A stretch of DNA of 64,000 nucleotides from Thalassococcus sp. S3 (GTDB lineage: Bacteria; Pseudomonadota; Alphaproteobacteria; Rhodobacterales; Rhodobacteraceae). Both the position numbers and the translations under genes were made by a program. Below the pieces are notes generated by a model, which made no database searches, was not told the origin of the DNA, and saw only the letters and a list, made by a program, of their open reading frames with translations. The stretch is from the NCBI RefSeq assembly GCF_004216475.1, contig NZ_CP022303.1:4709001-4773000 (forward strand). Direction: 5' to 3'. How positions within the stretch are numbered: position 1 is the first letter of the stretch; every line of letters starts with the position of its first letter. Below, in pieces: positions 6,213 through 22,195 of this stretch.

Positions 6213-6827
6213 GTGGCGAACCATCTTTATAAGAACGACCTGCCCGATGGGCTCGACCTAGGGCCCGTTGTGGCGATTGATTGCGAGACGATGGGTCTGA
6301 ACCCGCATCGCGACAGGCTCTGCGTGATTCAGATGTCCGGGGGCGACGGTGATGCGCATATCGTGCAGGTCGCCATCGGCCAGACCGAGGCGCCGAACCT
6401 GTGTGCGATGCTGGCCAATCCCGATGTGCTCAAGCTGTTTCACTTTGGCCGGTTCGATATCGCCGCCATGCTGAACGCATTTGGCGTGCTGACGGCGCCG
6501 GTCTATTGCACCAAGATCGCAAGCCGGCTGGTGCGCACCTATACCGACCGGCACGGGCTCAAGAACCTCACGCAAGAGCTTTTGGGCCTCGATATCTCGA
6601 AGCAACAGCAGATGAGCGATTGGGGTGCTGCAGAATTGACCGAGGCGCAGCTGGACTATGCCGCATCGGATGTTCTGCATCTGCACGCCCTGCGCGATGA
6701 ATTGAACCAACGGCTGGCGCGCGAGGGCCGGACGGAGATGGCACAGGCCTGTTTCGATTTCCTGCCCATGCGTGCGAAACTCGACCTCGCGGGCTGGCCT
6801 GAAACCGATATCTTCGCCCATTCATGA
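6213..6827 (+). CDS. rnd: Ribonuclease D-type 3'-5' exonuclease (exonuclease domain only)
   Basis: A DEDDy-family exonuclease of 204 residues. The three Exo motifs are present: VAIDCETMGL near residue 20 (D, E), FHFGRFDIAAM near 77 (D) and LDYAASDVLHLHAL near 150 (Y, D). It lacks the HRDC domains of E. coli RNase D, as is usual for the short alphaproteobacterial form, which trims tRNA and other structured RNA 3' ends. The start is GTG with AAAGGA 7 bases before. That Shine-Dalgarno sits within a 7-bp inverted repeat GCCGATC/GATCGGC (6188-6194, 6204-6210). The stop overlaps the kdsD start by 4 bases (ATGA), so it heads the kdsD-lpt-hpf-ptsN run. Confidence 0.93.
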   Translation: MANHLYKNDLPDGLDLGPVVAIDCETMGLNPHRDRLCVIQMSGGDGDAHIVQVAIGQTEAPNLCAMLANPDVLKLFHFGRFDIAAMLNAFGVLTAPVYCTKIASRLVRTYTDRHGLKNLTQELLGLDISKQQQMSDWGAAELTEAQLDYAASDVLHLHALRDELNQRLAREGRTEMAQACFDFLPMRAKLDLAGWPETDIFAHS

Positions 6828-7786
6828 GCGGTTATCAGGATACCGCCCGCCGGGTGATCGAAACGGAGGCGGCCGCGTTGAACACGCTGGGCGGCGCGCT
6901 TGACGACCGTTTCGATGCCGCCGTTGCGCGCCTTCTGGACACAAAGGGCCGCGTGATCGTCACCGGCATCGGAAAGTCCGGCCACATCGCCCGCAAGATC
7001 GCGGCGACCCTGGCCAGCACCGGCACGCCCGCGCATTTCGTGCATCCGGCAGAAGCGAGCCACGGCGATCTGGGTATGATCACCAGCGCCGATACGGTTC
7101 TTGCAATCTCCAATTCAGGCGAGGCGCCCGAGTTGGCGAACCTTCTGATCTTTGCGCGCCGCTTCGATATCCCGCTGATCGGCATGACCAGCCGGATGGA
7201 GAGCACGCTGGCCCGTCAATCCGACATCGTGCTGCCCCTGCCTCAATTGTCCGAGGCTTGCGGCACCGGCGTTGTGCCCACCTGTTCGACCACGATGACG
7301 CTGGCGCTTGGCGATGCACTGGCCGTCGCTTTGATGGAGCATCGCCATTTCACAGCCGAGCATTTCCGGGAATTCCATCCCGGCGGCAAGCTGGGCGCAC
7401 AGCTCAGCCGGGTGCGGGACCTGATGCACGGGGCCGACGAGTTGCCGCTGGCCCCGCTGGGCACAAGCATGAGCGATGCGCTTCTCACCATGAGCGAGAA
7501 GGGCTTTGGCGTTGTCGGCGTCACCGATGCCAGCGGCGCGCTGGAGGGGATCATCACCGACGGCGACCTGCGCCGCCACATGACCGGCCTGTTGGACCGC
7601 ACCGTCGAAGAGGTCATGACCCGTGATCCCCGGACCGTCGAGTCCGAGGCTCTGGCAGAAAAGGCTGTGGGGCTGATGACCATGCCCAAACCACGCATCA
7701 CCTGTCTCTTCGTGGTCGATGCGGCCGATGCGCCTCCGGTGGGTTTGATCCATATCCACGACTGCCTTCGCGTCGGATTGGGCTGA
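6824..7786 (+). CDS. kdsD: Arabinose-5-phosphate isomerase (KpsF/GutQ/KdsD family)
   Basis: KdsD converts ribulose 5-phosphate to arabinose 5-phosphate, the first step to Kdo for lipopolysaccharide. The 320 residues comprise an N-terminal SIS sugar-isomerase domain (VTGIGKSGHIARKIAATLASTG near 45, then ISNSGEAPEL) and two C-terminal CBS domains, from about 200 (LRDLMHGADELPL) and about 265 (VEEVMTRDPRTV). Active-site histidines fall in HPAEASHGDLGM and EFHPGGKLG. It overlaps rnd by 4 bases and is followed 11 bases on by lptC. kdsB lies 12 kb further right. I do not see kdsA or kdsC in the window. Confidence 0.95.
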   Translation: MSGYQDTARRVIETEAAALNTLGGALDDRFDAAVARLLDTKGRVIVTGIGKSGHIARKIAATLASTGTPAHFVHPAEASHGDLGMITSADTVLAISNSGEAPELANLLIFARRFDIPLIGMTSRMESTLARQSDIVLPLPQLSEACGTGVVPTCSTTMTLALGDALAVALMEHRHFTAEHFREFHPGGKLGAQLSRVRDLMHGADELPLAPLGTSMSDALLTMSEKGFGVVGVTDASGALEGIITDGDLRRHMTGLLDRTVEEVMTRDPRTVESEALAEKAVGLMTMPKPRITCLFVVDAADAPPVGLIHIHDCLRVGLG

Positions 7787-7797
7787 TCGGGGGCGGG

Positions 7798-8397
7798 ATG
7801 GACGGCTATTCCCGCATTGTCGCCATTTTCAAGGTGGTGCTGCCTCTTGCAGCGCTCGCCATCCTCTCGACGCTTTTCCTGCTGTCGCGTGGGGCGGACG
7901 AGGATGCGATCATCCCATTCTCCGAAGCCGATATCGAGAACCGGCTGCGCGATCAGCAGATCACCGCACCGTTCTTTTCCGGCGTCACCCCGAACGGGGA
8001 GGAGGTCATGGTCACGGCAGAACGCGCACGGCCCGGTGTCGGTGGAAGCCTGCCCGGCGCAGAGAACCTGTCGGGCCGCATCAGACTGTCGAACGGGGCC
8101 GACATCACGCTGACAGCCACGGAGGGGACGATAGACCCTGCGGAAGACCGCGTGACCTTTGATGGCGCGGTGCGAATCGTCACCTCGACGGGTTTCGAGA
8201 TTACGACCGACACCCTACATAGCGCCTTAGACAAGATTGATGCCGCCACTCCCGGGCCCGTTTTTGGAACCGGCCCGATGGGAAGATTTGACGCAGGGCA
8301 AATGCGGATTACGGCAAAAAGCGAAACTGAAAACGTCCATTTGCTTTTTCAAAACGGCGTGAAGCTGATATACGACCCGAAACTGCAAGAAAGATAA
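7798..8397 (+). CDS. lptC: LPS export protein LptC
   Basis: LptC is the inner-membrane-anchored periplasmic part of the lipopolysaccharide bridge; it takes LPS from the LptB2FG extractor and hands it to LptA. The 199-residue protein has one N-terminal membrane segment (VVLPLAALAILSTLFLLS, residues 12-30) followed by a beta-jellyroll domain with LPS-bridge repeats such as FSGVTPNGEEVMVTAERAR and DITLTATEGTIDPAEDRVTF. The gene is 11 bases after kdsD and 3 bases before lptA. The permease genes lptF and lptG are not in the window, as is common. Confidence 0.93.
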   Translation: MDGYSRIVAIFKVVLPLAALAILSTLFLLSRGADEDAIIPFSEADIENRLRDQQITAPFFSGVTPNGEEVMVTAERARPGVGGSLPGAENLSGRIRLSNGADITLTATEGTIDPAEDRVTFDGAVRIVTSTGFEITTDTLHSALDKIDAATPGPVFGTGPMGRFDAGQMRITAKSETENVHLLFQNGVKLIYDPKLQER

Positions 8398-8400
8398 CCT

Positions 8401-8892
8401 GTGAATTACATGCGTGCATTGTTTTTGGGCCTTCTCTGCCTGACGCTCACAGCGGTTTCATCATTCGCACAAAACGCTCAGGTCTCTTTCGGATCGCTCC
8501 GCGCGGATCCAAGCCTGCCGGTGGAGGTGACCGCGGACACGCTGGACGTGGATCAAAGCACCGGACAGGCCGTGTTTTCCGGGAACGTGCTGATTGGGCA
8601 GGGAGAGATGCGTCTTGCCGCGCAACGCGTGCTTGTCATCTATACCGAAGGCGGTCGTGGGATCGAACGGATGGAGGCAACAGGCGGCGTGACGCTGGTC
8701 AGCGGGCCGGATGCCGCCGAAGCGGAACGCGCCGACTACACCATAGACAGCGGTGTCATCGTCATGACCGGCAATGTCCTGCTGACCCAGGGGCCAAGCG
8801 CGCTGGCAGCCGACCGCATGACCGTTAACTTAACATCAGGCACCGCGCAGATGGTGGGCCGCGTCAAAACGATCCTGCAGACAGGTGATTGA
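8401..8892 (+). CDS. lptA: LPS transport periplasmic protein LptA
   Basis: LptA forms the periplasmic filament that carries LPS to the outer-membrane LptDE complex. The 163 residues begin with a signal peptide (MRALFLGLLCLTLTAVSSFA, cut before QNAQ) and then an OstA domain with the typical LPVEVTADTLDVDQSTG and AVFSGNVLIGQGEMRL segments. The start given is GTG at 8401; the ATG at 8410 would remove three residues, and neither has a strong ribosome-binding site, as expected for a gene coupled to lptC 3 bases upstream. Its stop is next to the lptB start region. Confidence 0.93.
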   Translation: MNYMRALFLGLLCLTLTAVSSFAQNAQVSFGSLRADPSLPVEVTADTLDVDQSTGQAVFSGNVLIGQGEMRLAAQRVLVIYTEGGRGIERMEATGGVTLVSGPDAAEAERADYTIDSGVIVMTGNVLLTQGPSALAADRMTVNLTSGTAQMVGRVKTILQTGD

Positions 8893-8897
8893 AGGAC

Positions 8898-9656
8898 ATG
8901 ACGACACCCAGCTTACATGTGACCGAAGGCCAGGGCGGCCTGCGCATGGAAAAGCTGCGCAAGTCGTTCCGAAAGAAGATGGTGATCCGGGATGTCACCA
9001 TGAAACTGGACCGCGGCGAAGTCGTGGCCCTGCTGGGTCCCAACGGATCGGGGAAGACAACGACCTTTTACGCGATTGCGGGGCTCGTTTTTCCTGAAGC
9101 CGGCAGCGTCACCATTGATGGGCATACCGTCACCACTTTGCCGATGTATCGCCGCGCCCGTCTGGGCATCGGCTATCTTCCGCAAGAGATGTCGATTTTT
9201 CGCGGCCTGAGCGTCGAGGACAATATCTCGGCCATCCTGGATGTCGCCCTGGACGATCGTCACAAAAGGCGCGAGCGGCTGGAAGAGCTTTTGTCCGATT
9301 TCTCCATCGAGCATTTGCGCCGTGCGCCAGCGCTGGCCCTTTCTGGCGGGGAACGTCGGCGCGTGGAAATCGCGCGATGCCTGGCTGCTGATCCAAAGTA
9401 TCTGCTCCTGGACGAGCCCTTTGCCGGCGTCGATCCGATCTCCGTCAATGATATCCGGCATCTGGTCGGGGATCTGAAGAAACGGGGTATCGGCGTTCTG
9501 ATCACAGACCACAATGTGCGTGAGACGCTTGAAATCGTAGACCGCGCCTACATCCTGCATGATGGTCAGGTTCTGATGTCCGGCACCCCGCAAGAGGTTG
9601 TCGAGAACGAAAATGTCCGGCGCGTTTATCTGGGTGAAAACTTTCGCATCAGTTAA
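8898..9656 (+). CDS. lptB: LPS export ABC transporter ATP-binding protein LptB
   Basis: LptB is the ATPase that powers extraction of LPS from the inner membrane. The 252 residues contain all ABC motifs: Walker A GPNGSGKTT near residue 50, signature LSGGERRRVEIARCLA near 150, Walker B YLLLDEPFAGVD near 170, and the switch histidine in ITDHN. The start is uncertain: a TTG at 8889 overlaps the lptA stop (TTGA), and the ATG at 8898 begins MTTPSLHVTEG, the form I expect for relatives. In many proteobacteria lptB is followed by rpoN; here hpf follows after a 261-base structured gap. Confidence 0.96.
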   Translation: MTTPSLHVTEGQGGLRMEKLRKSFRKKMVIRDVTMKLDRGEVVALLGPNGSGKTTTFYAIAGLVFPEAGSVTIDGHTVTTLPMYRRARLGIGYLPQEMSIFRGLSVEDNISAILDVALDDRHKRRERLEELLSDFSIEHLRRAPALALSGGERRRVEIARCLAADPKYLLLDEPFAGVDPISVNDIRHLVGDLKKRGIGVLITDHNVRETLEIVDRAYILHDGQVLMSGTPQEVVENENVRRVYLGENFRIS

Positions 9657-10537: not shown

Positions 10538-11002
10538 ATGAACCTGTCCGATATCCTCAAACCTGAGGCCGTCAAGGTATTGTCCGCGGTGTCGAGCAAG
10601 AAGCGGCTGTTTCAGGATATCGGCGAGCTGGTCGAGAGTGCATATAGTCTCAGCGCGTCTGCAACGGTGGACGCACTTCTTGACCGGGAAAGCCTGGGGC
10701 CAACCGGTGTCGGCCACGGCGTGGCGCTGCCCCATTCCCGCATCGCGGCGACATCTGACGTGATCGGCGCCTTCGTTCTTCTCGAACGGCCCATCGACTT
10801 TGGCGCAGTCGATCGTCAGCCGATCGATATCGCCTTTGCCCTTTTCGCCCCCGAGGATGCCGGCGTCGATCACCTCAAGGCATTGGCGCTTGTGTCGCGC
10901 ACACTGCGCGATTCCAAGCTGTGTTCGAAGTTGAGGGCGAATAGAGATCCCGCCACGCTTTATGCCATTCTGACCGAAGGTCAGTCCGTACAGGCCGCCT
11001 AA
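10538..11002 (+). CDS. ptsN: Nitrogen-regulatory PTS IIA protein
   Basis: PtsN (EIIA-Ntr) is the end acceptor of the PTS-Ntr phosphorelay and adjusts potassium, nitrogen and envelope functions by its phosphorylation state. The 154-residue protein has the IIA fold with the phospho-histidine in GVGHGVALPHSRI near residue 65. The ATG at 10538 (MNLSDILKP) is preferred because GGAG lies 9 bases upstream and this is the family start; earlier in-frame ATG codons at 10499 and 10523 add unrelated residues. It ends the rnd-to-ptsN run; its stop codon overlaps that of the convergent sulfotransferase. Confidence 0.95.
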   Translation: MNLSDILKPEAVKVLSAVSSKKRLFQDIGELVESAYSLSASATVDALLDRESLGPTGVGHGVALPHSRIAATSDVIGAFVLLERPIDFGAVDRQPIDIAFALFAPEDAGVDHLKALALVSRTLRDSKLCSKLRANRDPATLYAILTEGQSVQAA

Positions 11003-12432
11003 CCACCCTGGCGCCAGGCTCCGAACCCGAGCATCATGTAATCGCGCTGATAGACATCGCTGACCAGCGCTTCGATCTCGTCAGTGTAAACCGCGTCCAG
11101 CGTGAATGGCGTCTCTTCCTCCGACGCTCCAAGGTCGGGCTGGATATGGCATCCCACATCGGCAGCCACAATCTGCAGCCCCGTACCAAGCGTTTCTTCC
11201 CGCAAGACGAAGTCGGGGGCGACGAAATCGCCAAACCCCTGTAACGCCTGGGATTGGGTGCACCAGGTCGCGTCGACCCGCATGGCCGTCTGACCCGCCA
11301 GATTGGCCTTCAAAAACATGACAAAAGCCGTAAAAGCCGCGCGATGGGCATCAAGCGTCCAGTCCGGGCCCGGCTCTTTTTCGGGGATCGGTAATTTGTA
11401 ACGCCGCCGCAGGGTCCGCCGGATCTGCGCATAACTGCCCGGCCCGGTAGACAGGATTCTGCGGCAAAACGCGCGATGCACGCGCGTCACCGGGTGGGCC
11501 AGCACCGTAAAGCTGCGATGCCCGACATGCCGGCGCTTCCACTGCCGCAGATCCTTCTGGTTCAGTTTGGTGATCAAGTTGCCTTCGTCCACCTGATCCA
11601 GCGCCGCCAGCCAGGCCCTGACCTGCGCCTCGGGTCCGCCCCTCACAGGGAGGTAGATCAGCGGCGTGCGCGCCGCCGCGACATAAGACGGCACCGCCGG
11701 ACCATGGCGGGGTTCGAAATTCGGCGTGCGGGATATATTGAAGACATCAAGGCGCGCCAGCGCCGCCGCCATCTCCTCGGGGTTTTCGACTTTGGTTTCG
11801 ACCGGCGCCGGGTTTTGCCGCTTAAGCGTTTTATCAAGCGCATCAAGCGTTTCATCCACGCCCAGCCAGCGCGCAAGTCCGTTCATCACCTCGACGCTCT
11901 GCAGATCTTCGTAGGGAACGTAGAATGCCGTCTGTCCACTAACTTGCAGACGGTTCAGCAGACGAACCTGGAAATCCCGCAACGTCTGCACATGCTCGGC
12001 AAACTCGTCACCGTCAAAGGAAACCTTTGCGGCTTTCCGGGCTTTCACATTGGTCAGTTTCCATTGGCCCGTCGCTTGCGCGATCTTCCATGACACATAG
12101 CTGTCCAGCGGATTACGCGTTAGGATGATCTTGGCGCAGCGTGGATCATCCAGCATCCGATCAAGGATGCGGGGGTCGTGATCGTGAAAATACCGGAAAC
12201 CGGCCAGAACGCCCGGCTCCGCCTTGATCCGGGTCAGCAGCCGTTGGGGATCGTGATCCCGTTCAGCCTGGCTGACCCCGAGGATCATTTCTTGCCCCGG
12301 ATAGCCCATCAAATGCGGGTTGAACGCCTCTCCCAGGCAGCGCAGCCCAACGAATGCATTTAAATTGGTCTCAAGAAAATTGGACCCGGTCCGCATCTCG
12401 GCAAACACAACGAAATAGTCAAAGTCGGGCAT
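10999..12432 (-). CDS. Two-domain PAPS-dependent sulfotransferase
   Basis: A 477-residue protein that should move sulfate from PAPS to a sugar hydroxyl. The N-terminal half looks like an Stf0/NodH-type sulfotransferase: the 5'-phosphosulfate loop AEMRTGSNFLE near residue 11 and the 3'-phosphate site ILTRNPLDSYVSW near 103. The second half resembles the sulfotransferase family 2 fold (FTVLAHPVTRVHRAFCRRIL near 308), but its 3'-phosphate motif is degenerate: the usual Arg-Asp-Pro is Ala-His-Pro and the serine is missing. Thus the first domain is probably the catalyst and the second structural or acceptor-binding. It is the last gene of the glycan run, 6 bases after the GT14-like gene, and converges on ptsN with overlapping stops. 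Confidence 0.82.
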   Translation of the reverse strand: MPDFDYFVVFAEMRTGSNFLETNLNAFVGLRCLGEAFNPHLMGYPGQEMILGVSQAERDHDPQRLLTRIKAEPGVLAGFRYFHDHDPRILDRMLDDPRCAKIILTRNPLDSYVSWKIAQATGQWKLTNVKARKAAKVSFDGDEFAEHVQTLRDFQVRLLNRLQVSGQTAFYVPYEDLQSVEVMNGLARWLGVDETLDALDKTLKRQNPAPVETKVENPEEMAAALARLDVFNISRTPNFEPRHGPAVPSYVAAARTPLIYLPVRGGPEAQVRAWLAALDQVDEGNLITKLNQKDLRQWKRRHVGHRSFTVLAHPVTRVHRAFCRRILSTGPGSYAQIRRTLRRRYKLPIPEKEPGPDWTLDAHRAAFTAFVMFLKANLAGQTAMRVDATWCTQSQALQGFGDFVAPDFVLREETLGTGLQIVAADVGCHIQPDLGASEEETPFTLDAVYTDEIEALVSDVYQRDYMMLGFGAWRQGG

Positions 12433-12438
12433 GGTGTC

Positions 12439-14136
12439 TTATTTGACCAAATAGGGCTTCTGCTTCGGCTGTTCCTGATGCAGCGGAGCGGTGTCCACGG
12501 GAAAATCTCCCATCAGATAGGGGTGCATGCCCTGATTCTTCAGATTTTGCAAAAATTGGCCAAATCCGCTGAGATCCACCATTTTCGGAGCTTCGGCCAG
12601 GCGTCTGTTCTGCACCACCCCGATTTCGTCCAGAATGTTCTGAAGCGGCTCCATCGGCGCCTCGACGAATTCCGCCATCGTCCAGATGCGGATCCGTGCC
12701 TTGGTGCCCGGCCCGCGTAACACCGACAGATGCTTGTTCTCGATTCTCTGCAGATCCGCGGCCTGCGCCCTCAACTCGGCAAAATTATTGCTCGCCCGAA
12801 ACAGGGGAACCGCCCATGCACCCGTGATCACCGAAATCTGCGCGTTGGGATCGCGGGCCATCATCCATGCGGGTTTTTGATTGTCCGTCGGACCGTATTG
12901 AAAGCACTGGCGTTCCCCGCGGGTGTTCCAGATCAGGTTGGTCAGGAACGCCTTGGGGTCATAATCCCTGCTGGCGGCACTGTCGCTGAGGCACCCGTTG
13001 ATCATGGTTTGCCCGCCCGCGAACATCACGCGATCCGGATCGAAAATATGGCTATGCACCCGTGTCCCCGTGGCTTTCGCCAACCACGGTTCAAAGTCCT
13101 CGAAAAGCTCCGTGAAGCCCTGAAAAACCGAATAAGGACCGCATGTCACTCCGTTTTCCCAATCGAGGTTGGGGAACCGGCTTTGCATGTAAAGACCCGG
13201 CCGTCCGCGCGTTCGCCGCTCCACCGCTTTGGCAAAGATGCGGTCGATCTTGCCCGGGTTGGGCTCCGTCCGTTTCAACTCTGTTGCGTTCTCCGTCAGG
13301 AATGCGCGGTAGAGGCGATCGGCATGAGGCCAGATCTTGCGCGCCACGAAGCAATCCGACCGACGCAGCAGCTGCAGATGGTCATCATAGAAGATATGCG
13401 GTTTACCCTGAAAATCGAACTTCGAGAGCGTGAGCGACCGGCTTTCGATGTTGGTCGAATAAATGCGCACGAGGGACTGGAAATAGCTTTCGTCCGGGAT
13501 CCAGACCTTGCGAAAGTATCCGTCGTATGTTTCCCGGTGCGGATCCTCGAGGATCGACAAAAGCGTCTGGCGCGTCAAACACCACCATTGGCTGCCCATA
13601 TGGGGCACAAGACCCTGCGGCAGGCGACGCTTGAGCCCAAGGCGCCGTTGCAGCCGCACATAGATGTCAAAGAGTTTGCGCTGCCGCTTCCAGGAAAACG
13701 GGAAGCGCAGTGTGAACCGTTCCTCATCCAGGCCGCCGACCGTCCAGGGCACATCGGCGGTCGTGGCGCTTTCGATGAAGTCGGTTTGCGGGCGGGCTGC
13801 GAGGTAATCCACCATGTCCTGCACCGGCCGAAGCGGCAGACAGGAGCCGGAGGAGAGATAGACGTGATTGACCGCGCCGAATTGCTGAAGCAGTTGATGA
13901 GCCGCCTGCTGAGAGGCCGCGACGATCCCCCAGGTGCCCCATTCACAGCGATAGCGCTTTGAGAATGTGATCAGCGGGTCATTGGACAGCTTTTTGCGAA
14001 ACGCCTGAAAGACATCGCGGCGCACCTTCGCATCGACATGCAACACAACCGGGCACCCATTGGCCGTCCAATGGCGCGCGACCTGCTCTGCCCGGGGCAG
14101 CGCGGTATGAACCAGCATCACGATCCCGACGGTCAT
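12439..14136 (-). CDS. GT14-like beta-1,6-N-acetylglucosaminyl/xylosyltransferase-type enzyme with extra C-terminal domain
   Basis: A 565-residue protein. The N-terminal about 290 residues match the core-2/I-branching (GT14) fold: GIVMLVHTALPRAEQVARHW, then VHVYLSSGSCLPLRP-like sequence near 92 and a W-rich QWWCLT segment near 190. The C-terminal about 270 residues (from about ERRTRGRPGLYMQSRFPNLDW) form a separate domain, probably the one called DUF5927, of unknown role; it includes HSHIFDPDRVMFAGG, reminiscent of adhesin or sulfotransferase-neighbour proteins. Donor and acceptor cannot be told from sequence. It overlaps the upstream GT92-like gene by 4 bases and is 6 bases from the sulfotransferase, so the two products probably act on the same glycan. 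Confidence 0.8.
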   Translation of the reverse strand: MTVGIVMLVHTALPRAEQVARHWTANGCPVVLHVDAKVRRDVFQAFRKKLSNDPLITFSKRYRCEWGTWGIVAASQQAAHQLLQQFGAVNHVYLSSGSCLPLRPVQDMVDYLAARPQTDFIESATTADVPWTVGGLDEERFTLRFPFSWKRQRKLFDIYVRLQRRLGLKRRLPQGLVPHMGSQWWCLTRQTLLSILEDPHRETYDGYFRKVWIPDESYFQSLVRIYSTNIESRSLTLSKFDFQGKPHIFYDDHLQLLRRSDCFVARKIWPHADRLYRAFLTENATELKRTEPNPGKIDRIFAKAVERRTRGRPGLYMQSRFPNLDWENGVTCGPYSVFQGFTELFEDFEPWLAKATGTRVHSHIFDPDRVMFAGGQTMINGCLSDSAASRDYDPKAFLTNLIWNTRGERQCFQYGPTDNQKPAWMMARDPNAQISVITGAWAVPLFRASNNFAELRAQAADLQRIENKHLSVLRGPGTKARIRIWTMAEFVEAPMEPLQNILDEIGVVQNRRLAEAPKMVDLSGFGQFLQNLKNQGMHPYLMGDFPVDTAPLHQEQPKQKPYLVK

Positions 14137-15143
14137 GCCCAGTTCCCCTTGGACATAAGCCCCAGGATCTCAAGTTGACGCCAGTTGATGTATTTCTCTG
14201 ACCACTTGCACCACAATTCCGGGTCATCGCGAAGGGTCTCTGCATAGGCCTTGTATTCGACCGAGGCGGAGTAGTGCTGCTTCCGGTTCAACTCCTCACT
14301 TGCCTTGGCATTGAAGGTGTCCAGAAACTTTGTGTGCAGCAGGATGCCTGACGCCTTCTCGCCCCCCCATTCGTCGTAGACGAGGTTCAGACCACGCGGC
14401 AACAGCATGTGGGTTGAGCTGACGTAAGCGTAACGCCGGTCCCATTTCACCAGCGGGATCTTGTTCAGCGCGGGTGCCAGTTGGGGTTTGTCGTAAAAGA
14501 AGACACGGCTGCGCGGCCCGCCCTGAATCCACAGATTGCCGTACCGCTTGTTACGCCGCATCGTGTAATTGCCACTGTCGAACCAGGAGGCGATCTCCAT
14601 CGGATCCTGGCCCTCGCGATAGGGCTGCTCGTCCAGACGCCCTTTGGGATACATGTCGAGCAGCATGGCACTGAAGGACTTGATGGAAGAGGCGTCGAGC
14701 CAGTCGGTCAGCGCCCGCAATGGGCGTGTGTCGCAAAACGGGTAGATGAAGAATTCATCCGGGTCCACGGTCAGCGACCAGTGTCCGTGCGCGTGGCGCA
14801 TCTGCAGCCAATTCAACCAATCCACGCCGAAGCGGGCACGCTTGTATCCGGATTTGGTATGCCAGACCGACACGTCCGGCTGCGACTTGAGATAGTCCAG
14901 ACCGCCATCGGTGCTGTCATTGTCCACGATCAGGAAATGATTAACGCCGAGGTCGCGATAGTATTTCAGGAAGTAAGGCAGGCGTACCCGTTCGTTACGC
15001 ATGGTCGAGAATAGCAGGATATCGCCGCTTTGGATGCCATCGGTCCGGTCGGCAATCGGCATCAATTCGCGCCGCTTACGGATCGCACGGATGCGCCAGC
15101 GTTTACGTTGAAGCCTGAGGCGATAGGACTGCCAAACGCCCAA
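14133..15143 (-). CDS. Glycosyltransferase family 2/92-like protein
   Basis: A 336-residue protein with a GT-A type catalytic core: LLFSTMRNERVRLPYFLKYY near residue 42, then HFLIVDNDSTDGG and the metal-binding motif VDPDEFFIYP near 126. It belongs to the Glyco_tranf_2_4/DUF23-type group, members of which are found in bacterial surface-glycan loci. The N-terminus is very basic (RLRLQRKRWRIRAIRKRRE), perhaps for membrane or lipid association. No membrane segment is seen, so it should be cytosolic. It lies 48 bases after the GT4 gene and overlaps the GT14-like gene by 4 bases. The substrate is unknown. Confidence 0.82.
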   Translation of the reverse strand: MGVWQSYRLRLQRKRWRIRAIRKRRELMPIADRTDGIQSGDILLFSTMRNERVRLPYFLKYYRDLGVNHFLIVDNDSTDGGLDYLKSQPDVSVWHTKSGYKRARFGVDWLNWLQMRHAHGHWSLTVDPDEFFIYPFCDTRPLRALTDWLDASSIKSFSAMLLDMYPKGRLDEQPYREGQDPMEIASWFDSGNYTMRRNKRYGNLWIQGGPRSRVFFYDKPQLAPALNKIPLVKWDRRYAYVSSTHMLLPRGLNLVYDEWGGEKASGILLHTKFLDTFNAKASEELNRKQHYSASVEYKAYAETLRDDPELWCKWSEKYINWRQLEILGLMSKGNWA

Positions 15144-15191
15144 AAACCTTGCCCTTTTTTACCTCGGTGTTCCTGCTTTGCTATGCGCTTA

Positions 15192-16421
15192 TCAGGTCAA
15201 CGTTAACACGGTGTTGAAGTGCTTGTCCCAACTCGGCGGCTGAAACCTCGCGCGCCACTCAATGCTGTCCTGTTCTTTTGGCGCCCCCATCAAGCGCTGT
15301 ATTTCGTTTCTCCATAGATAACGGTCTGTTTCTTTTACGTAAACGGGAATATCGCCCATTGTTTCCCGGTAGATAGGTAATTCAAGGCAGACGGGTCGGG
15401 TCCCCACTGCAAGTGCCTCCAAAGGCGGCAAACCGTAGCCTTCGGCAAGGCTGGGGCAAAGCAAAGCTCTGGCGCCCGCGACCAGACTGTGAACGGCGCC
15501 GTCGGGCAGGTCGGACAATTCGGTCACCCGGGTCGCCGGTCCAAGCGCATCAAGTCGGCGAAAAACAGCTTCATTCTGCCATCCCCGCGCGCCGCACACA
15601 AAAAGCCTCGGCGCGTCCTCGCCGAGATCGTCCCAAACGTCGAGCAAAAGGTCATGCCCTTTGCGTGGCTCGATCGTGCCCACGGTCACGAAATAGGGAT
15701 CGGAAAGGTCCAGCGCCGCTGGAACCGCACCGGGATCAAGGCGCGGTACATCAATGCCCAACGGAACGACCGCGCTGTCCGGGACATCTCCCCAAGCGCT
15801 CATATGCGCCTCAGCCCGGTCCCGGCTGTGCTCGGAGTTATAGAGGATCAGGTCAGCACAGCGCCGGACGCGCTGCAGCTTGGCGCGAAAGGCGTCTGGT
15901 ACTCCGGGGCGCTGAAACTGCGGGAAATCCAGTGGGATCGCATCATGCAATAGGACCGCTATGCGGCCACCGCATTCCTGGACGGCACCCAGCATGCGCT
16001 CTGTCAGGTTGCTGTGCCCGACATTGAGATAGGCAAAGCCATCCGGCAGATGCCGCGCGAGCATCGCCCGCAAACGCCCCGGCACCGCCCGCGCGCAGGC
16101 AAAACGGCGCAGATCGGCCTCGGCCCGGCGGCCCAGGCCAAGAAGCTCAATCAGATCGGGAGGGCCCCATGCGGCGTCTCCGGTCAGCCGCTCAGCAAGA
16201 GCTTTCGCGCCATCTGGTCCGACGAGGACATAGCCCAGCCGCGTCCGTGCTATCAGGTAAAGAGGGACCGGGTCTTTTTGCAGGTGAACCAGATAGGCCA
16301 ACTCAACACGATCGACCCCGGTCAATACCCGGCCCACCCGTCGGATCAGCCGCGTCAGATCCAGCAGACGGGCCTTGGGTCTATTTGTCGTAATGGCCAG
16401 CTTGGTGCCATCTCCATGCAT
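15192..16421 (-). CDS. Glycosyltransferase family 4 (GT-B) protein
   Basis: A 409-residue retaining glycosyltransferase. The C-terminal half has the GT4 hallmarks: FVTVGTIEPRKGHDLLLDVW near 240 and the nucleotide-sugar motif ALLCPSLAEGYGLPPLEALA near 315, with the E-x7-E pattern. The N-terminal part begins LLDLTRLIRRVGRVLTGVDRVELAYL, seen in similar roseobacterial glycan enzymes, and includes LLHDAIPLDFPQF. The ATG at 16421 lies 41 bases inside galE; the true start could be a few codons later, since family similarity begins around residue 17. It is followed by the GT92-like gene. Confidence 0.85.
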   Translation of the reverse strand: MHGDGTKLAITTNRPKARLLDLTRLIRRVGRVLTGVDRVELAYLVHLQKDPVPLYLIARTRLGYVLVGPDGAKALAERLTGDAAWGPPDLIELLGLGRRAEADLRRFACARAVPGRLRAMLARHLPDGFAYLNVGHSNLTERMLGAVQECGGRIAVLLHDAIPLDFPQFQRPGVPDAFRAKLQRVRRCADLILYNSEHSRDRAEAHMSAWGDVPDSAVVPLGIDVPRLDPGAVPAALDLSDPYFVTVGTIEPRKGHDLLLDVWDDLGEDAPRLFVCGARGWQNEAVFRRLDALGPATRVTELSDLPDGAVHSLVAGARALLCPSLAEGYGLPPLEALAVGTRPVCLELPIYRETMGDIPVYVKETDRYLWRNEIQRLMGAPKEQDSIEWRARFQPPSWDKHFNTVLTLT

Positions 16422-17364
16422 CTTCGATCATGGTATGCAGCGTAGAGCGCGTTGGTGTCCAGCCCAGCTCTTCGACCGCGCGCACAGAACCCGAAACCAG
16501 CTTCGTGCAATCGCCCGGACGCCGGGGCCCTTCGACATACGGAACGTCGCGATTCGTGACCGCCCGGGAATGGTCGATCACCTCGCGCACCGAAAAGCCG
16601 CTTCCCGTGCCCAGATTGAACACCCGGCTCCCCTTTCCCTCTTCCAGCCATTTCAGGCCAAGAACATGCGCGTCAACCAGATCGCAGACATGAACGTAGT
16701 CGCGGATACAGGTGCCGTCAGGCGTCTCGTAATCTGTCCCGAACACTGTCAGGGCATCCCGCTTTCCCTCGATCGCATCCAGCATCAGTGGAATCAGATG
16801 CGTTTCCGGCCGATGGAACTCGCCCACCTCGGCCTCCGGATCGGCACCGGCCACGTTGAAATACCGAAAGATCACATGGCGCAGGCCATAGGCTGCTTCG
16901 AAATCCTTCAATATGTCTTCGATCGCCTTCTTCGAGGCGCCGTAAGCATTCAAAGGCTCCTGATTCGTCTCTTCATCCAGCACGACATTGTCGTGCTCGC
17001 CATAGGTCGCGCAGGTCGAAGAGAACACGAAATCAAGGCAGCCCGCTGCGACCGCCGCTTCGATCAGGCTCAAAGAGCCTGTGACGTTGTTGTGCCAGTA
17101 CTTGCCTGGCTCCTTCATCGCTTCGCCCACCTGGCTGAGCGCCGCGAAATGCATCACCGCAATCGGCTTATATTCCGCGAACGCCGCATCGAGCGTGGCG
17201 CGATCAGTGAGGTCGCCCTGCACGAACGGGCCGAACTTTACGGCATCCTGCCATCCGGTGATGAGATTGTCATAGGTGACGGGCACGTAGCCCGCCGCTT
17301 TCAAGGCCTTGCAGGCGTGCGAGCCGATATAGCCCGCGCCACCTGTCACGAGAACATGCGTCAC
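16381..17364 (-). CDS. galE: UDP-glucose 4-epimerase
   Basis: GalE interconverts UDP-glucose and UDP-galactose using bound NAD. The 327 residues show the Rossmann motif VTGGAGYIGSHACKAL at the start, the catalytic SSTCATYGE near 122 and the Y-x3-K pair in NAYGASKKAIED near 146, plus the FRYFNVAGADP segment near 165. It is 14 bases after galU, so the pair makes UDP-glucose and then UDP-galactose. It overlaps the start of the GT4 gene. The precursors most likely feed the adjacent glycosyltransferases. Confidence 0.95.
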   Translation of the reverse strand: MTHVLVTGGAGYIGSHACKALKAAGYVPVTYDNLITGWQDAVKFGPFVQGDLTDRATLDAAFAEYKPIAVMHFAALSQVGEAMKEPGKYWHNNVTGSLSLIEAAVAAGCLDFVFSSTCATYGEHDNVVLDEETNQEPLNAYGASKKAIEDILKDFEAAYGLRHVIFRYFNVAGADPEAEVGEFHRPETHLIPLMLDAIEGKRDALTVFGTDYETPDGTCIRDYVHVCDLVDAHVLGLKWLEEGKGSRVFNLGTGSGFSVREVIDHSRAVTNRDVPYVEGPRRPGDCTKLVSGSVRAVEELGWTPTRSTLHTMIEDAWRWHQAGHYDK

Positions 17365-17378
17365 GTTGTACCGTTATT

Positions 17379-18275
17379 CTATTGTGCTGCTTTGTCGATT
17401 TGGACGATTTCGCTGAGATACCGCGACAAGTCTTCCCGCAGATCATCCCGCGCCAGGCCAAAGGCCACAGTGGCTTGCAGGAACCCTGCCTTGGAACCGC
17501 AGTCAAAACGCTGGCCCCGGAAGCGATATCCGTAAACGCCGCCATCTTCCTTGCCGATTTCCTCGGCGATGGCATCGGTCAACTGGATTTCATTGCCAGC
17601 GCCGGTCTTCTTTTTATTCAGGTTGCGCAGAACCGCAGGTGTCAGGATATACCGTCCGATCACCGCGAGGTTGGAGGGCGCGTCTTCCGCTTTCGGCTTC
17701 TCGACCATGCCTTTGACCGACACGATGGATCCCATGTCCTCTTGAACATCGAGGATACCGTAGGACGAGGTCTTCTCCGGCGGCACTTCCATGGCTGCAA
17801 CCATGCTGGCACCGGTTTCTTCGTAAGCTTCCACCATCTGTTCGAGACAAGGCTTTTCAGCCGCGATCACGTCATCGGGCAGGATCACCGCGAAAGGTTC
17901 GTTCGCGATCAGCCGACGTGCGCACCACACCGCGTGGCCCAGGCCCAGCGCCTTGTGCTGCCGGATATAGGCAATTGCGCCGCTGTCCATATTGGTGTCT
18001 TGCAGCGTTTCGAGCAGATCCGTTTTCCCCTTACGCTCAAGCTCCTGCTCAAGGATGGGGGAATGGTCGAAATAGTCTTCCAGCGCGCTCTTGCCGCGTG
18101 AGGTGACAAAGATGAACTCCTTGATCCCGGCAGCACGCGCCTCGTCGATGGCGTACTGAACAAGCGGCCGGTCGACCAGGGTCATGATCTCTTTCGGGAC
18201 AGACTTCGTAGCGGGCAGGAACCGTGTTCCCATCCCAGCAACCGGAAAAATGGCTTTGGTAAGCTTTTTACGCAT
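17379..18275 (-). CDS. galU: UTP-glucose-1-phosphate uridylyltransferase
   Basis: GalU makes UDP-glucose from UTP and glucose 1-phosphate. The 298 residues have the nucleotide-binding loop FPVAGMGTRFLPATKSVPKE near residue 10, the VDRPLVQYAIDEA segment, AVILPDD near 128 and VEKPK near 190. The ATG at 18275 is chosen because GAGG sits 6 bases upstream; a TTG four codons earlier is also open. The 149-base gap before it contains a GCTGAC/GTCAGC hairpin and probably a promoter, so galU may start its own transcript. Confidence 0.95.
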   Translation of the reverse strand: MRKKLTKAIFPVAGMGTRFLPATKSVPKEIMTLVDRPLVQYAIDEARAAGIKEFIFVTSRGKSALEDYFDHSPILEQELERKGKTDLLETLQDTNMDSGAIAYIRQHKALGLGHAVWCARRLIANEPFAVILPDDVIAAEKPCLEQMVEAYEETGASMVAAMEVPPEKTSSYGILDVQEDMGSIVSVKGMVEKPKAEDAPSNLAVIGRYILTPAVLRNLNKKKTGAGNEIQLTDAIAEEIGKEDGGVYGYRFRGQRFDCGSKAGFLQATVAFGLARDDLREDLSRYLSEIVQIDKAAQ

Positions 18276-18296
18276 GTTCAACCTCAATCAAATATC

Positions 18297-18312
18297 GCTG
18301 ACAGCCGTCAGC
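18297..18312. promoter_or_regulatory. Short perfect hairpin/operator in the galU leader
   Basis: GCTGAC (18297-18302) and GTCAGC (18307-18312) pair around the four-base loop AGCC, 22 bases before the galU ATG. A 10-bp palindrome GCGCATGCGC follows at 18385-18394. Either could be a regulator site in the 149-base gap between the GT2 gene and galU. Inference from symmetry only. Confidence 0.35.
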
Positions 18313-18424
18313 ATTCAAATTCACCCTATACACACACGGTTCCCGGATTGCATGTACTCACACAGATATTTCTATGTGAAGTGCGCGCATGCGCAGCGGA
18401 ATCGCGCCAATAAGTGCTCAATAA

Positions 18425-19657
18425 TTACGCAGTTCCGCGCATAGTGCAATAACGCCTCTTTTCGCGACGGACGCGTCTTGTGAACGATGTTAAGCGAAAC
18501 AGCGGATCGTTTCGCAAACTCCTCCCGAATGTTCCCCCGGTTTGGCACCAATATCCGTCGCTTTCGAAAACAACGTGATGAAACAAGGCGGTCGGCGAAA
18601 AGAGAAACAGCGTTGTGATCCGTCCCGCCTGAACATGGGCCTTGGCCTCGGCGCGAAGGCGTGCGGCAGACCAGGATCGCCCTGCCAGCACAACATGCTG
18701 TCGTTTCGTGTTAGAAGGGAAAGGCTGAAACGCGGTCGCCGATCGGGGCAGGGCAGGCATCGCTATGGGCGGTCTCGTCAGACCTTCGGCATGTCCGGCG
18801 TCGAGGCTGCGCATCAATCTGCCGACATCGCGGGGTTCCAAAGCGCCTGTCACCATATGCCGAAGCGCGCGCGCCCGTTCACGCCGGCGAATCGCTATCC
18901 AGATCTCGGAGCGCATGTCCTCGGGACAATGCTTGTTCAAAAACACAGCCCAGCTTGCCCCGATCTGATGCAGATCCTTCGGCACCCTTGATCGGGTGCG
19001 TATCGCGTTTTCCTGAAACCCGTGATGCACCTCGGCCAGAGGCGCGATGGCGGTCTGCAAGCGGCGCGCGGCAAGGCGGAGGTTCAGATCGGTCTCGTCA
19101 TGGAAATAGTGAAAGTTAGGATCGAAACCGCCCATCTCAGCCAGAATCGACCGGCGGATGGCCATGTTGGTGCCTTCCGTCTTCACGGCCTGACCGGGTT
19201 GCGCGGTCAGGATCGTGGCGCGATGCGAATCGACATCAAGCGATGCGGTCTCTCCTGTGTGGTCGACCGACTGTGCCTGCCATTGCCAGGAAATGCCGTT
19301 TCGGCCGCGCACAAAACCACCGACCGCGCTGACGTCAGGGTCTGAAAACGGGCCAATCAGGTAAGTGAGCCACGCAGGCTCCGGCACCGCGTCGTCATCT
19401 ATGAAAGCGACGATCTCGCCGGCGGCCTCCGCCACGCCCATGTTGCGCGCCTGGGATATGTTGGCCTCGTCGAACACAACCAGTTTGAGATCATCCGCAA
19501 TCGGCAGACGTCTGACCGCACGAAGCCCTTCGGTACAGGCAACCACGATGATTTCGAACGGCGCGTAAAGAAGCTGAGAAATACCCGTCAGACACCGTGT
19601 CAGCGCTTTAGGCCGGCCACGGCTGACCACGACCACGCTGACCGGAGGGGACGTCAT
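18425..19657 (-). CDS. Glycosyltransferase family 2 protein
   Basis: A 410-residue inverting glycosyltransferase. The GT-A domain fills the first about 250 residues: VSVVVVSRGRPKALTRCL, then ISQARNMGVAEAAGEIVAF and the DxD motif FIDDDAVPEP near 90, followed by TEGTNMAIRRSIL and the acceptor-side HDETDLNLRLA near 190. The C-terminal part (about 160 residues) is rich in arginine and has no assigned domain. It overlaps kdsB by 4 bases, so it is co-translated with kdsB and cysQ. Sugar donor and acceptor are unknown. Confidence 0.87.
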   Translation of the reverse strand: MTSPPVSVVVVSRGRPKALTRCLTGISQLLYAPFEIIVVACTEGLRAVRRLPIADDLKLVVFDEANISQARNMGVAEAAGEIVAFIDDDAVPEPAWLTYLIGPFSDPDVSAVGGFVRGRNGISWQWQAQSVDHTGETASLDVDSHRATILTAQPGQAVKTEGTNMAIRRSILAEMGGFDPNFHYFHDETDLNLRLAARRLQTAIAPLAEVHHGFQENAIRTRSRVPKDLHQIGASWAVFLNKHCPEDMRSEIWIAIRRRERARALRHMVTGALEPRDVGRLMRSLDAGHAEGLTRPPIAMPALPRSATAFQPFPSNTKRQHVVLAGRSWSAARLRAEAKAHVQAGRITTLFLFSPTALFHHVVFESDGYWCQTGGTFGRSLRNDPLFRLTSFTRRVRREKRRYCTMRGTA

Positions 19658-20454
19658 TCCAATCCCATTGCCTGCATCATGGCCTCGATCTTGGGGATGT
19701 CTTCGGGGTTGTTCAACTCCCAGAACTGCCGGCCCCGTGCCTCAACCTCCACACAGAGGATGCTGCGCCCGCTTTCCATGAACCGCAGTTGCTCAAGCCC
19801 TTCGAGTGTTTCCAGCGGGCCAACGTCCCAGCCGGGATAGGCAGCCAGCGCGTCCGCGCGAAAGGCGTAAACACCGACATGGTGAAAGACCGGCGTGGGG
19901 GCGGTGTCGGCATAGGTCTCTGTGGTGAAGGGAATAACCTCCTTCGAGAAATAAAGTGCCCTGTTGGACTGATCGAAGACAGCGGTGGTGCCGCCGACGC
20001 GGCCCGCCTTTCGATCCGCCAGAAATCCGGCCAATGCCGCCCCATCGCAGCGCAGAACCGGCGTCGCGGCGCCGGCTTCCGGGGCATTCACCAGTCCCGT
20101 CACCAGATCTTCGATAAACCAGTGGGGCGTAAGCGGCGCATCGCCCTGCAGATTGACGACGATGTCAAACCCGCCGCCGAGCACCTGGTGTGCTTCGGCA
20201 CATCGTTCCGTGCCGTTGGCACAGGTGGGGGAGGTCATGACAACCTCCGCCCCGAAGGCTTGGCATGCGTCCTGGATACGCTGATCGTCTGTCGCCACCA
20301 CGACCCGGTCCACGCCGCTGACGGCCTGTGCCGCGCGCCAGGAGCGCTCAATCAGGCTGACCTTTTGCCCCTTCGCACCGGTCAATTCCGCAAGCGGCTT
20401 TCCGGGGTAGCGGGAGGAGGCAAAACGGGCCGGGATGACGATAAGGACGGACAT
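19654..20454 (-). CDS. kdsB: 3-deoxy-manno-octulosonate cytidylyltransferase
   Basis: KdsB activates Kdo as CMP-Kdo for lipid A or for Kdo-linked capsules. The 266-residue protein shows VIPARFASSRYPGKPLAEL near residue 6, VVATDDQRI near 51, VNLQGDAPL near 97 (one residue unlike the usual QGDEP) and HVGVYAFRADAL near 190. The GDAP variant and about 15 more residues than E. coli KdsB are mild oddities. It overlaps cysQ (TGATG) and the GT2 gene (4 bases). Whether it serves LPS alone or also the nearby glycan cannot be told. Confidence 0.9.
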   Translation of the reverse strand: MSVLIVIPARFASSRYPGKPLAELTGAKGQKVSLIERSWRAAQAVSGVDRVVVATDDQRIQDACQAFGAEVVMTSPTCANGTERCAEAHQVLGGGFDIVVNLQGDAPLTPHWFIEDLVTGLVNAPEAGAATPVLRCDGAALAGFLADRKAGRVGGTTAVFDQSNRALYFSKEVIPFTTETYADTAPTPVFHHVGVYAFRADALAAYPGWDVGPLETLEGLEQLRFMESGRSILCVEVEARGRQFWELNNPEDIPKIEAMMQAMGLE

Positions 20455-21251
20455 CAGGCGGGCTTAAGCTCCACACCCGGCGCATAGGCGATGAAGAAGG
20501 GGTTGGCATATCCTTCTTTGCCGTAGGTCAGTGGCGTCTGATCGTCAAAGCGGACAACCTGCCCGCCCGCACCCGCCAGCACCGCGTGACCTGCGGCCGT
20601 GTCCCATTCCATCGTGCGGCCCAGACGCGGATAGAGATCCGCCTCTCCGGTCGCAACAAGACAGAACTTCAGCGAGGACCCTGCGCTGGTCATGTCTTTC
20701 ACACTATATTTGCCGATATAGTCATCAGTTGCCTGATCGCGGTGAGATTTGCTGGCCACGACCATCAATCCCGCATTGTCGGGCTGTGAGACGGTGACCT
20801 TGCTGGCCTCTCCCATCTCTTCGGGGTTGAAGGGACCTTTTTCTTCGACCGTGCTGCCATCGGCGAGGGTCAGAAACATCCGCCCCTTGGCCGGCGCGTA
20901 AACAACTCCGCGCGTCGGCACGCCGTTTTCGACAAGCGCGATGTTCACCGTGAAGTCCCCGCGCCGATGAATAAACTCCTTGGTGCCGTCCAGAGGGTCG
21001 ACGATCAGGAATGTATCGCCTGTTTCCTTGTGCGAGGCGGACTGCTCTTCGGTCACGAGCATCACGTCGGGAAACGCGGCTTTCAGCCCATCCGAGATCA
21101 AAGCATCCGCAGCCTCGTCCGCGGCGGTGACCGGACTATCATCCGACTTGACCTTCACATCGAAATCATCGGCCTCGTAAATCTCCATGATCTTGTCGCC
21201 TGCCTCAAGCGCGAGGCGTCGTATCACGGGAATAAGTGCCTCATAGGTCAT
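20454..21251 (-). CDS. cysQ: 3'(2'),5'-bisphosphate nucleotidase CysQ
   Basis: CysQ hydrolyses PAP, the by-product of PAPS-dependent sulfotransferases, to AMP and phosphate, and so prevents PAP inhibition. The 265 residues show the inositol-monophosphatase-like metal site: LVTEEQS near 67 and the signature FLIVDPLDGTKEFIHR near 82, plus TMEWDTAAGHAVL near 212. ATG at 21251 has GGAG 9 bases upstream; longer in-frame starts exist up to 21314. Being first in a run that ends in a sulfotransferase is functionally apt. It is divergent from the ABC-2 permease with 122 bases between. Confidence 0.93.
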   Translation of the reverse strand: MTYEALIPVIRRLALEAGDKIMEIYEADDFDVKVKSDDSPVTAADEAADALISDGLKAAFPDVMLVTEEQSASHKETGDTFLIVDPLDGTKEFIHRRGDFTVNIALVENGVPTRGVVYAPAKGRMFLTLADGSTVEEKGPFNPEEMGEASKVTVSQPDNAGLMVVASKSHRDQATDDYIGKYSVKDMTSAGSSLKFCLVATGEADLYPRLGRTMEWDTAAGHAVLAGAGGQVVRFDDQTPLTYGKEGYANPFFIAYAPGVELKPA

Positions 21252-21373
21252 CCGGTCAATCTCCATTTCTTTCAGTTCATTGAAATATCGGGCAAAGCCG
21301 CTTATGCTGCGCAACTAACGGAACCGCAAGAATTCCGTGTCACAATTGGCAGCGTCACAGGGTCACGAGGGTC

Positions 21374-22195
21374 ATGTTCGATTCCAGAAGACGGCAATCC
21401 GGCTTCGGTGCCGCGGTCAATATATTCGAGCTCGTATATCATTCCATCGTTCGCAACGTTCGGAAATCTCACAGCAATGCATTCATGGCTGTGCTCACCA
21501 ACATGCTGCAGATCGTCATCTTCGTACTGGCCTTCTACATCATGTTCACCGTTCTGGGCCTGCGCAGCGCGGCGATCCGGGGTGATTTCCTGCTCTACAT
21601 CATGACCGGCATCTTTCTTTACATGACCCACGTAAAGACGTTGGCCGCCGTCGTCGCCTCGGAAGGGCCCGCAAGCCCGATGATGAAGCATGCGCCGATG
21701 AACACGGTCATCTCGATCCTGTCTTCGGCCTTTGGCGCACTTTATATTCAGTTGCTTTCGCTCTTTGTGATCCTTTTCGGGTATCACGTGATCTTCACGC
21801 CGATCGAGTTTGAAGATCCGGCAAGCACATTCGCGATGCTGATGGTTGCCTGGTTCACCGGCGCCGCGCTGGGTGTGCTACTTCTGGCCATCAAGCCCTG
21901 GTTTCCCACGGCCGTATCGGTCTTCACCCAGATCTATCAGCGCGCGAACATGATCGCGTCGGGCAAGATGTTCGTGGCCAATACGCTGCCCAGCTTTATG
22001 CTGGCGCTGTTTGACTGGAACCCGCTCTTTCACGCGATCGACCAGTCGCGCGGTTACGCCTTTATCAATTACAACCCCCGCTACAGCAGTTGGGAATACG
22101 CGATGTGGGTCGGCGTCATCCTCCTGATGATCGGCCTGATGGGCGAATTCTATACGCGCAAAAACACCTCGGCGAGCTGGTACGCCCGGAGATGA
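21374..22195 (+). CDS. ABC-2 type polysaccharide export permease (KpsM/Wzm-like)
   Basis: A 273-residue inner-membrane protein with about six hydrophobic segments, for example MLQIVIFVLAFYIMFTVLGL, FLLYIMTGIFLYM and GVILLMIGLMGEFY. The overall pattern fits permeases of capsule or O-antigen ABC exporters, which push lipid-linked glycans across the inner membrane. The partner ATPase is not in the window. Together with kdsB and the glycosyltransferases across the divergent gap it suggests export of a cell-surface glycan. The stop overlaps the SH3 gene by 4 bases (ATGA). Confidence 0.8.
   Translation: MFDSRRRQSGFGAAVNIFELVYHSIVRNVRKSHSNAFMAVLTNMLQIVIFVLAFYIMFTVLGLRSAAIRGDFLLYIMTGIFLYMTHVKTLAAVVASEGPASPMMKHAPMNTVISILSSAFGALYIQLLSLFVILFGYHVIFTPIEFEDPASTFAMLMVAWFTGAALGVLLLAIKPWFPTAVSVFTQIYQRANMIASGKMFVANTLPSFMLALFDWNPLFHAIDQSRGYAFINYNPRYSSWEYAMWVGVILLMIGLMGEFYTRKNTSASWYARR

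Follow-up and report, generated by a model that had tools for sequence, protein, structure and literature searches.

The window analysed here is a stretch of 64,000 nucleotides (G000:C1:4709001-4773000) from the 5.0 Mb genome of Thalassococcus sp. S3, and its subject is a compact block of ten genes that runs from a tandem sulfotransferase gene (STF) to the gene of an ATP-binding cassette (ABC) permease. The analyses indicate that this locus is probably one part of a pathway dispersed over three places in the chromosome, similar to that of group 2 capsules and shared by most of the sampled Rhodobacteraceae, for a sulfated glycan anchored through 3-deoxy-D-manno-octulosonic acid (Kdo). The observations that carry this reading are the gene content, the co-conservation and shared absence of the parts and their physical linkage in two relatives. 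From them we infer that all parts act on one glycan, which would be sulfated and Kdo-anchored, and homology together with shared presence suggests that the group 2 mechanism may apply to the locus.

The locus and its distant partners

On the reverse strand lie STF (477 aa, 10999..12432), a GT14 glycosyltransferase (Branch, PF02485) with a C-terminal DUF5927 domain (12439..14136), a PF13704 glycosyltransferase that had been labelled GT92-like (14133..15143), a GT4 glycosyltransferase (15192..16421), galE for UDP-glucose 4-epimerase (16381..17364), galU for UDP-glucose pyrophosphorylase (17379..18287), a GT2 glycosyltransferase (18425..19657), kdsB for cytidine monophosphate-Kdo (CMP-Kdo) synthetase (19654..20454) and cysQ for the phosphatase of 3'-phosphoadenosine 5'-phosphate (PAP; 20454..21314). 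The KpsM/VexB-like ABC permease gene (21374..22195) is on the forward strand. STF, GT14, PF13704 and the permease are regarded as dedicated module genes. The original prediction, made from the sequence of the window, placed these ten genes correctly in position and strand and rightly described them as tightly packed, with a divergent permease. The permease gene starts 59 bases from cysQ, head to head. The intergenic gaps from STF to cysQ are 6, -4, 48, -41, 14, 137, -4 and -1 bases, and the statement that the genes mostly overlap or lie within 50 bases thus holds for all neighbours but galU and GT2 (137). Its reading of the block as the locus of one sulfated glycan is partly supported and incomplete. 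STF and the glycosyltransferases do form a co-conserved module, but the CysQ, KdsB, GalU and GalE genes are not dedicated to it. The permease was overlooked as a dedicated part, as were export and Kdo loci elsewhere on the chromosome that encode the ATPase, periplasmic, outer-membrane and Kdo-transferase partners.

In the proposed pathway, KpsS/KpsC-type enzymes of a distant kpsS-kpsD-kpsC locus would start a short Kdo chain on lipid, with CMP-Kdo supplied via KdsD-KdsA-KdsB. The GT2, GT4, PF13704 and GT14 enzymes of the window would lengthen the chain with sugars coming partly from GalU/GalE, and the tandem sulfotransferase would sulfate the glycan in the cytoplasm from 3'-phosphoadenosine-5'-phosphosulfate (PAPS). 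CysQ would remove PAP, as for any PAPS reaction, and the window permease and a distant KpsT-like ATPase would bring the glycan to the surface by way of KpsE- and KpsD-like parts. In the group 2 mechanism, a Kdo chain is begun on phosphatidylglycerol by KpsS and then elongated by KpsC (PMC10148158).

No ATPase gene adjoins the permease within the window. With the KpsT of the smaller contig C3 (L076) as a query, a second KpsT-like gene, 36% identical, was found at C1:1386124-1386753, and downstream of it lie a KpsE-like gene (TIGR01010, 191.2 bits, cut-off 437.5), kdsA (above cut-off) and a gene for phosphoglucomutase/phosphomannomutase (pgm). The third locus (L162:5290-11660) holds KpsS-, KpsD- and KpsC-like genes in the order kpsS-kpsD-kpsC, between genes that we take to be ribD- and ribE-like. 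PF05159, the KpsC/KpsS family, scores above the Pfam cut-off in both the KpsC- and the KpsS-like protein, and the KpsC-like protein is dual-module, its modules matching solved KpsC with E-values of 1.2e-57 and 3.4e-54. Because of these matches the two proteins are assigned to the KpsS-type and dual-module KpsC-type beta-Kdo transferases; the NCBIfam KpsS model gives 217 bits, under its cut-off of 600. The earlier suggestion that the glycan is perhaps Kdo-linked is made likelier by the co-occurrence of these putative genes. The KpsD-like protein passes Pfam PF02563, and the window permease matches the VexB and KpsM models weakly (45.2 and 33 bits). Homologs of the KpsM/KpsT pair, KpsE and KpsD were all found, with scores below the NCBIfam cut-offs, and the permease and ATPase co-occur.

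Regions around kpsT and around kpsS-kpsD-kpsC were chosen by us in relatives because they bear matches. There, kpsT adjoins kpsE in all 12 regions sampled for it; kdsA or pgm is next to them in 10 of these (not in G045 and G115). The kpsS-kpsD-kpsC group is next to ribE in each of the eight relatives sampled. In G004 the pgm-kdsA-kpsE-kpsT group abuts STF, and in G115 kpsT-kpsE is found beyond dnaK-dnaJ, at a distance of about 5 kb from the permease. In the Thalassococcus genome the genes are spread over three loci, with partial joining in the two relatives just named, and the contiguous layout of E. coli capsule loci was not found. As gene layout does not belong to the mechanism, the pathway is described as one that would work like group 2, not as an E. 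coli-type group 2 locus. The smaller contig C3 (L076, G000:C3:10000-29999) carries another kpsM-kpsE-kpsT-like set, adjoining an RTX-like protein, long and rich in repeats, and another large protein with a PF13704-like end (all named by eye).

Joint presence and absence across the family

Presence was scored with limits set by us at E 1e-30 for STF and the permease, 1e-60 for GT14 and 1e-70 for the ATPase. Among 120 family genomes, strict orthologs of STF were found in 97, of GT14 in 99, of the permease in 98 and of the KpsT-like ATPase in 103. All four genes occur together in 95 genomes, none in 17, and 8 genomes are mixed; if the genes were independent, 0.1 genomes with none would be expected against the 17 observed, a figure that ignores kinship. 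The mixed genomes G028, G068, G096, G098 and G119 are less than 90% complete, unlike G057, G069 and G074. PF05159 occurs in 111 of the 120 genomes, and the nine without it are all among the 17 module-less ones.

The changes of the module were followed on a tree of four flank proteins from 50 genomes, from which three long-branched module-less rows (G059, G090 and G014) were omitted. Nine changes of the module label are needed on this tree, of which supported branches force at least six (8-9 over bootstraps). Over six independent pairs, STF is followed by the ATPase in an average of 5.2 and by the permease in an average of 5.4, and never in the opposite direction. An earlier, quicker tree, with 53 of 60 rows having enough sequence and three more long-branched rows, gave three such pairs. 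At the root of the flank tree stands a four-genome clade in which the absence of the module may be loss or original lack.

Flank stretches were fetched from 16 of the 17 module-less genomes (not G033) and from G069; several end soon after ptsN. None of the 16 module-less stretches, of which those of G102, G109, G029, G008 and G014 are short, has a match to STF, GT14, PF13704, GT4, GT2 or the permease. Without the module, galE, galU and cysQ are kept at the site in G067, all of galE, galU, kdsB and cysQ in G063, galU, kdsB and cysQ in G051, galU in G048 and kdsB in G090, while G102 keeps galE and galU up to the contig end, with no STF, GT14, PF13704 or GT4 before it. The remaining ten stretches hold none of galE, galU, kdsB and cysQ, except for a galU about 9 kb off in G059. 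Since between one and four of these genes persist in six module-less relatives, none of CysQ, KdsB, GalU and GalE is a dedicated part of the module. That the whole block is a chance cluster of unrelated housekeeping genes is nevertheless hardly credible: these four do behave as housekeeping genes, but STF, GT14 and the permease are present or absent jointly across the family, with repeated changes, and the other three glycosyltransferases are also missing at the module-less sites seen whole.

The original prediction had framed the locus with CysQ as the dedicated partner of the sulfotransferase. This role was rejected, as cysQ stays at the site in the module-less G067, G063 and G051 and in the STF-less G057 and G074; the expected co-occurrence of STF, GT14 and CysQ is found for the first two genes, and CysQ persists where the module, or STF, is absent. 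The same applies to GalU, GalE and KdsB, kept without the module, and kdsB is moreover the sole copy in the genome, so that it presumably also serves lipopolysaccharide (LPS). By score, GalE (415.6 bits), GalU (341.5 bits) and CysQ (TIGR01331, 265.9 bits against a cut-off of 228.8) pass the NCBIfam cut-offs, and KdsB is above the cut-off of two subfamily models and 1.4 bits short for TIGR00466. Five Inositol_P proteins are encoded in the genome, and only the CysQ of the locus is above the CysQ cut-off. The kinase of adenosine 5'-phosphosulfate (APS) was tried as a co-occurring partner and is uninformative, being present in 112 of the 120 family genomes, including 14 of the 17 module-less ones, without tracking the module.

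The tandem sulfotransferase and the glycosyltransferases

Residues ~1-245 of STF are Stf0/NodH-like and show a sulfotransferase fold with a 5'-phosphosulfate loop; the R14-T-G-S-N18 loop is intact, and E35, R106 and S114 are conserved (the fold list covers residues 3-244). Residues ~250-477 are Sulfotransfer_2-like and lack a PAPS loop. This second domain distinguishes STF from Stf0, NodH and LPS sulfotransferases (M. smegmatis Stf0, 1tex; NodH, 9vki). A profile of STF orthologs matches the solved 'LPS sulfotransferase NodH' 9vki with an E-value of 1.1e-17. The window STF has no Pfam family match at E<=0.001, and neither it nor any of 56 members of set A2 matches the Pfam Stf0 family, a further difference from Stf0/NodH and the reason why STF is filed as Stf0/NodH-like only. 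PF03567 (Sulfotransfer_2) is matched by 46 of the 56 members, the window STF not among them; in the three members with a placed match, the aligned part begins only at profile position 60-73 of 252, and profile A4 aligns with a true Sulfotransfer_2 protein only from A4 column 55 and protein residue 89. The C-terminal half is thus not a full Sulfotransfer_2 domain with its PAPS loop, and no PDB sequence relative of it was found.

The ortholog of G056 (L166:8602-9777) has just 391 aa and is matched over residues 8-221 only, which means that the second domain has diverged or been lost there. The C-terminal half of STF is related to a single-domain Sulfotransfer_2 paralog (hhalign 91%). This paralog is encoded head to head with a second GT14 bearing a terminal DUF5928 at L077:8635-11176 (G000:C1:3703634-3706175); the pair also occurs in G107 (L078), and a second GT14 match is present in most family genomes listed. 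A scan of viral contigs with the paralogous sulfotransferase gave no relative. For STF itself, 0 of 72,556 plasmid records cover 80% of the sequence, and a sample of 289 genomes of the class gave six matches at E<=1e-10, four of them full-length and all within the family, and two partial ones outside it. Ruegeria pomeroyi is one of the species with an STF locus (L133).

The GT14 protein scores 543.4 bits with DUF5927 and 60.6 bits with Branch/GT14 PF02485 (cut-off 23.4), the PF13704 protein 117.3 bits and the GT4 protein 62 bits. A structure model of the GT14-DUF5927 protein was unusable (predicted local distance difference test, pLDDT, 42.9), no PDB relative was found by sequence, and the name DUF5927 is absent from the open literature searched. 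In G009 the GT14 gene (L046:8993-10680, G009:C3:2832992-2834679) is matched in two overlapping pieces in different frames, possibly through a frameshift or a sequencing error.

To describe the block in relatives, 40 regions were picked by us for having an STF match, from 98 matching genomes; some of them end at contig ends. The arrangement is more than accidental: all 40 regions have STF, GT14 and PF13704 grouped on the same strand, with STF beside GT14. The slot after PF13704 is taken by GT4 in 25 regions, by a second PF13704 gene in 13 and by neither in two. Of the other block genes, galE was found in 16 regions, galU in 35, GT2 in 24, kdsB in 24, cysQ in 36 and the permease in 36. These counts make STF-GT14-PF13704 the constant part of the block. 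Wherever both are present (36 regions), cysQ and the permease gene are arranged head to head on opposite strands, and in the four regions without a permease (G075, G010, G100 and G044) it is elsewhere or on another contig.

It could be argued that the glycosyltransferases and permease make a capsule-like glycan, and that STF is merely co-located and acts on another acceptor, whether glycan, lipid or protein. STF is indeed missing in G057 and G074, which keep the other module genes, and the C-terminal half of the protein consists of a degenerate sulfotransferase domain. Such a separate acceptor is, however, quite improbable, given the side-by-side position described above, the closeness to GT14 (at most 200 bases away in 79 of the best 80 of 566 named loci) and the concerted changes of STF and exporter in the independent pairs. 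The two relatives without STF alone suggest that sulfation within the proposed pathway seems to be dispensable. In G074, two neighbouring weak STF-like proteins are encoded elsewhere (L165, G074:C1:1263500-1280499) and might be a replacement.

Lipopolysaccharide, known capsules and meaning

Several observations weigh against a dispersed capsule-like pathway for one sulfated glycan. The matches of the permease, ATPase, KpsE, KpsD and KpsS all stay below the curated NCBIfam cut-offs, and KpsC has no NCBIfam match at E<=1e-20. G069 keeps the KpsT-like ATPase with no ortholog of STF, GT14 or the permease, eight of the 17 module-less genomes retain some PF05159 match, and the sign test on the flank tree has a median p of 0.0625. 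G057 and G074 lack STF as their only missing module gene and keep cysQ, and G019, G032 and G113 have STF and no APS kinase match, with a weak one in G027. To these points belong the genes next to the locus, where lptC matches are found in 33 and lptA matches in 34 of the 40 regions.

In the window, the left flank begins with a gene for a kdsD/KpsF-type arabinose-5-phosphate isomerase of Kdo synthesis (6824..7786, forward strand; above the cut-off of the KpsF/GutQ subfamily model), and beyond it, at 7798..9656 on the same strand, lie genes that we take, from sequence and gene order and not from a family search, to be lptC-, lptA- and lptB-like LPS export genes, with presumed hpf- and ptsN-like genes after them. 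On the right lie what are presumably an AlkB-like gene and dnaK-dnaJ. The neighbours could point to LPS, as could the sole kdsB within the locus and the label 'LPS sulfotransferase NodH' that some databases give to relatives. If so, the module would build or sulfate the LPS core or O-chain, the permease would be a Wzm-like LPS exporter or unrelated, and the Kdo genes and lpt-like neighbours would reflect LPS. We consider this unlikely, because STF tracks the KpsT-like ATPase, the permease and the KpsC/S family, which are capsule assembly genes, and KpsE- and KpsD-like partners are encoded with the KpsT-like and KpsC/S genes. The GC content of 55 to 64% across 5000-28000 does not indicate recent import, and scans for promoters and terminators showed no excess over chance (1 compared with a mean of 4.2, and 13 compared with 11.2, sd 3.6).

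The capsule-like pathway proposed here resembles the E. coli group 2 capsule (KpsSC/KpsMTED) in its KpsS- and dual-module KpsC-type proteins, KpsM/T-like pair, KpsE- and KpsD-like parts and kdsA/kdsB/kdsD supply. It differs in having three chromosomal loci instead of one, a built-in sulfotransferase and homologs that score below the curated cut-offs. Across the sampled family the STF-GT14-PF13704 trio is close to fixed, whereas the corresponding part of pathogens' capsule loci swaps rapidly; conservation this wide is unusual for a capsule.

Rhodobacter capsulatus belongs to the same order as Thalassococcus, and its capsule is likewise a surface polysaccharide. That capsule, the receptor of its gene transfer agent RcGTA, is encoded by rcc01081-01086 with Wza/Wzb/Wzc export according to a table of the paper (PMC10218006), whereas the locus described here is KpsMT-type, a comparison made by description and not by sequence. 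The idea of a gene transfer agent receptor was dropped for the present module, as GTA_TIM occurs in nine of the 17 module-less and 88 of the 95 full genomes, with no strict dependence; the association is loose (Fisher p 0.0002, related genomes not being independent).

Sulfated ABC-exported capsules are already known from Vibrio sp. KMM 8419, which has sulfotransferase genes in its biosynthetic cluster (PMC11641403). That cluster comprises 80 genes, includes cysNDC and lacks kpsC; its authors describe it as partly imported and propose group 3. The module described here is, in comparison, small, at one site in most sampled genera and without PAPS-making genes inside. No paper about this locus was among the matches listed in the open literature, judged by title and start of the abstract, subscription papers being outside the scope. 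As far as searched, what is new is the division of the pathway over three loci, a module that is nearly fixed throughout the family, the tandem form of the sulfotransferase and the bystander position indicated for CysQ and the sugar-supply genes.

More tentatively, and with less confidence than in the pathway itself, we suggest that most of the family may share one near-fixed, vertically inherited, sulfated Kdo-anchored capsule-type glycan that is core-genome-like rather than a variable serotype. Its fixed proximal unit might be made by PF13704 and GT14 and capped by the tandem STF, whose second domain, presumably dead, might be a part for docking the acceptor or GT14. If the pathway is as proposed, likely partners would be assigned to the separated exporter pieces and to the DUF5927 proteins, and studies of phage receptors, algal contact, biofilm and bacterial sulfated polysaccharides would gain a concrete target. 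A large bacterial group would then have one shared sulfated coat, the genes of which readily escape notice owing to their division among three places.

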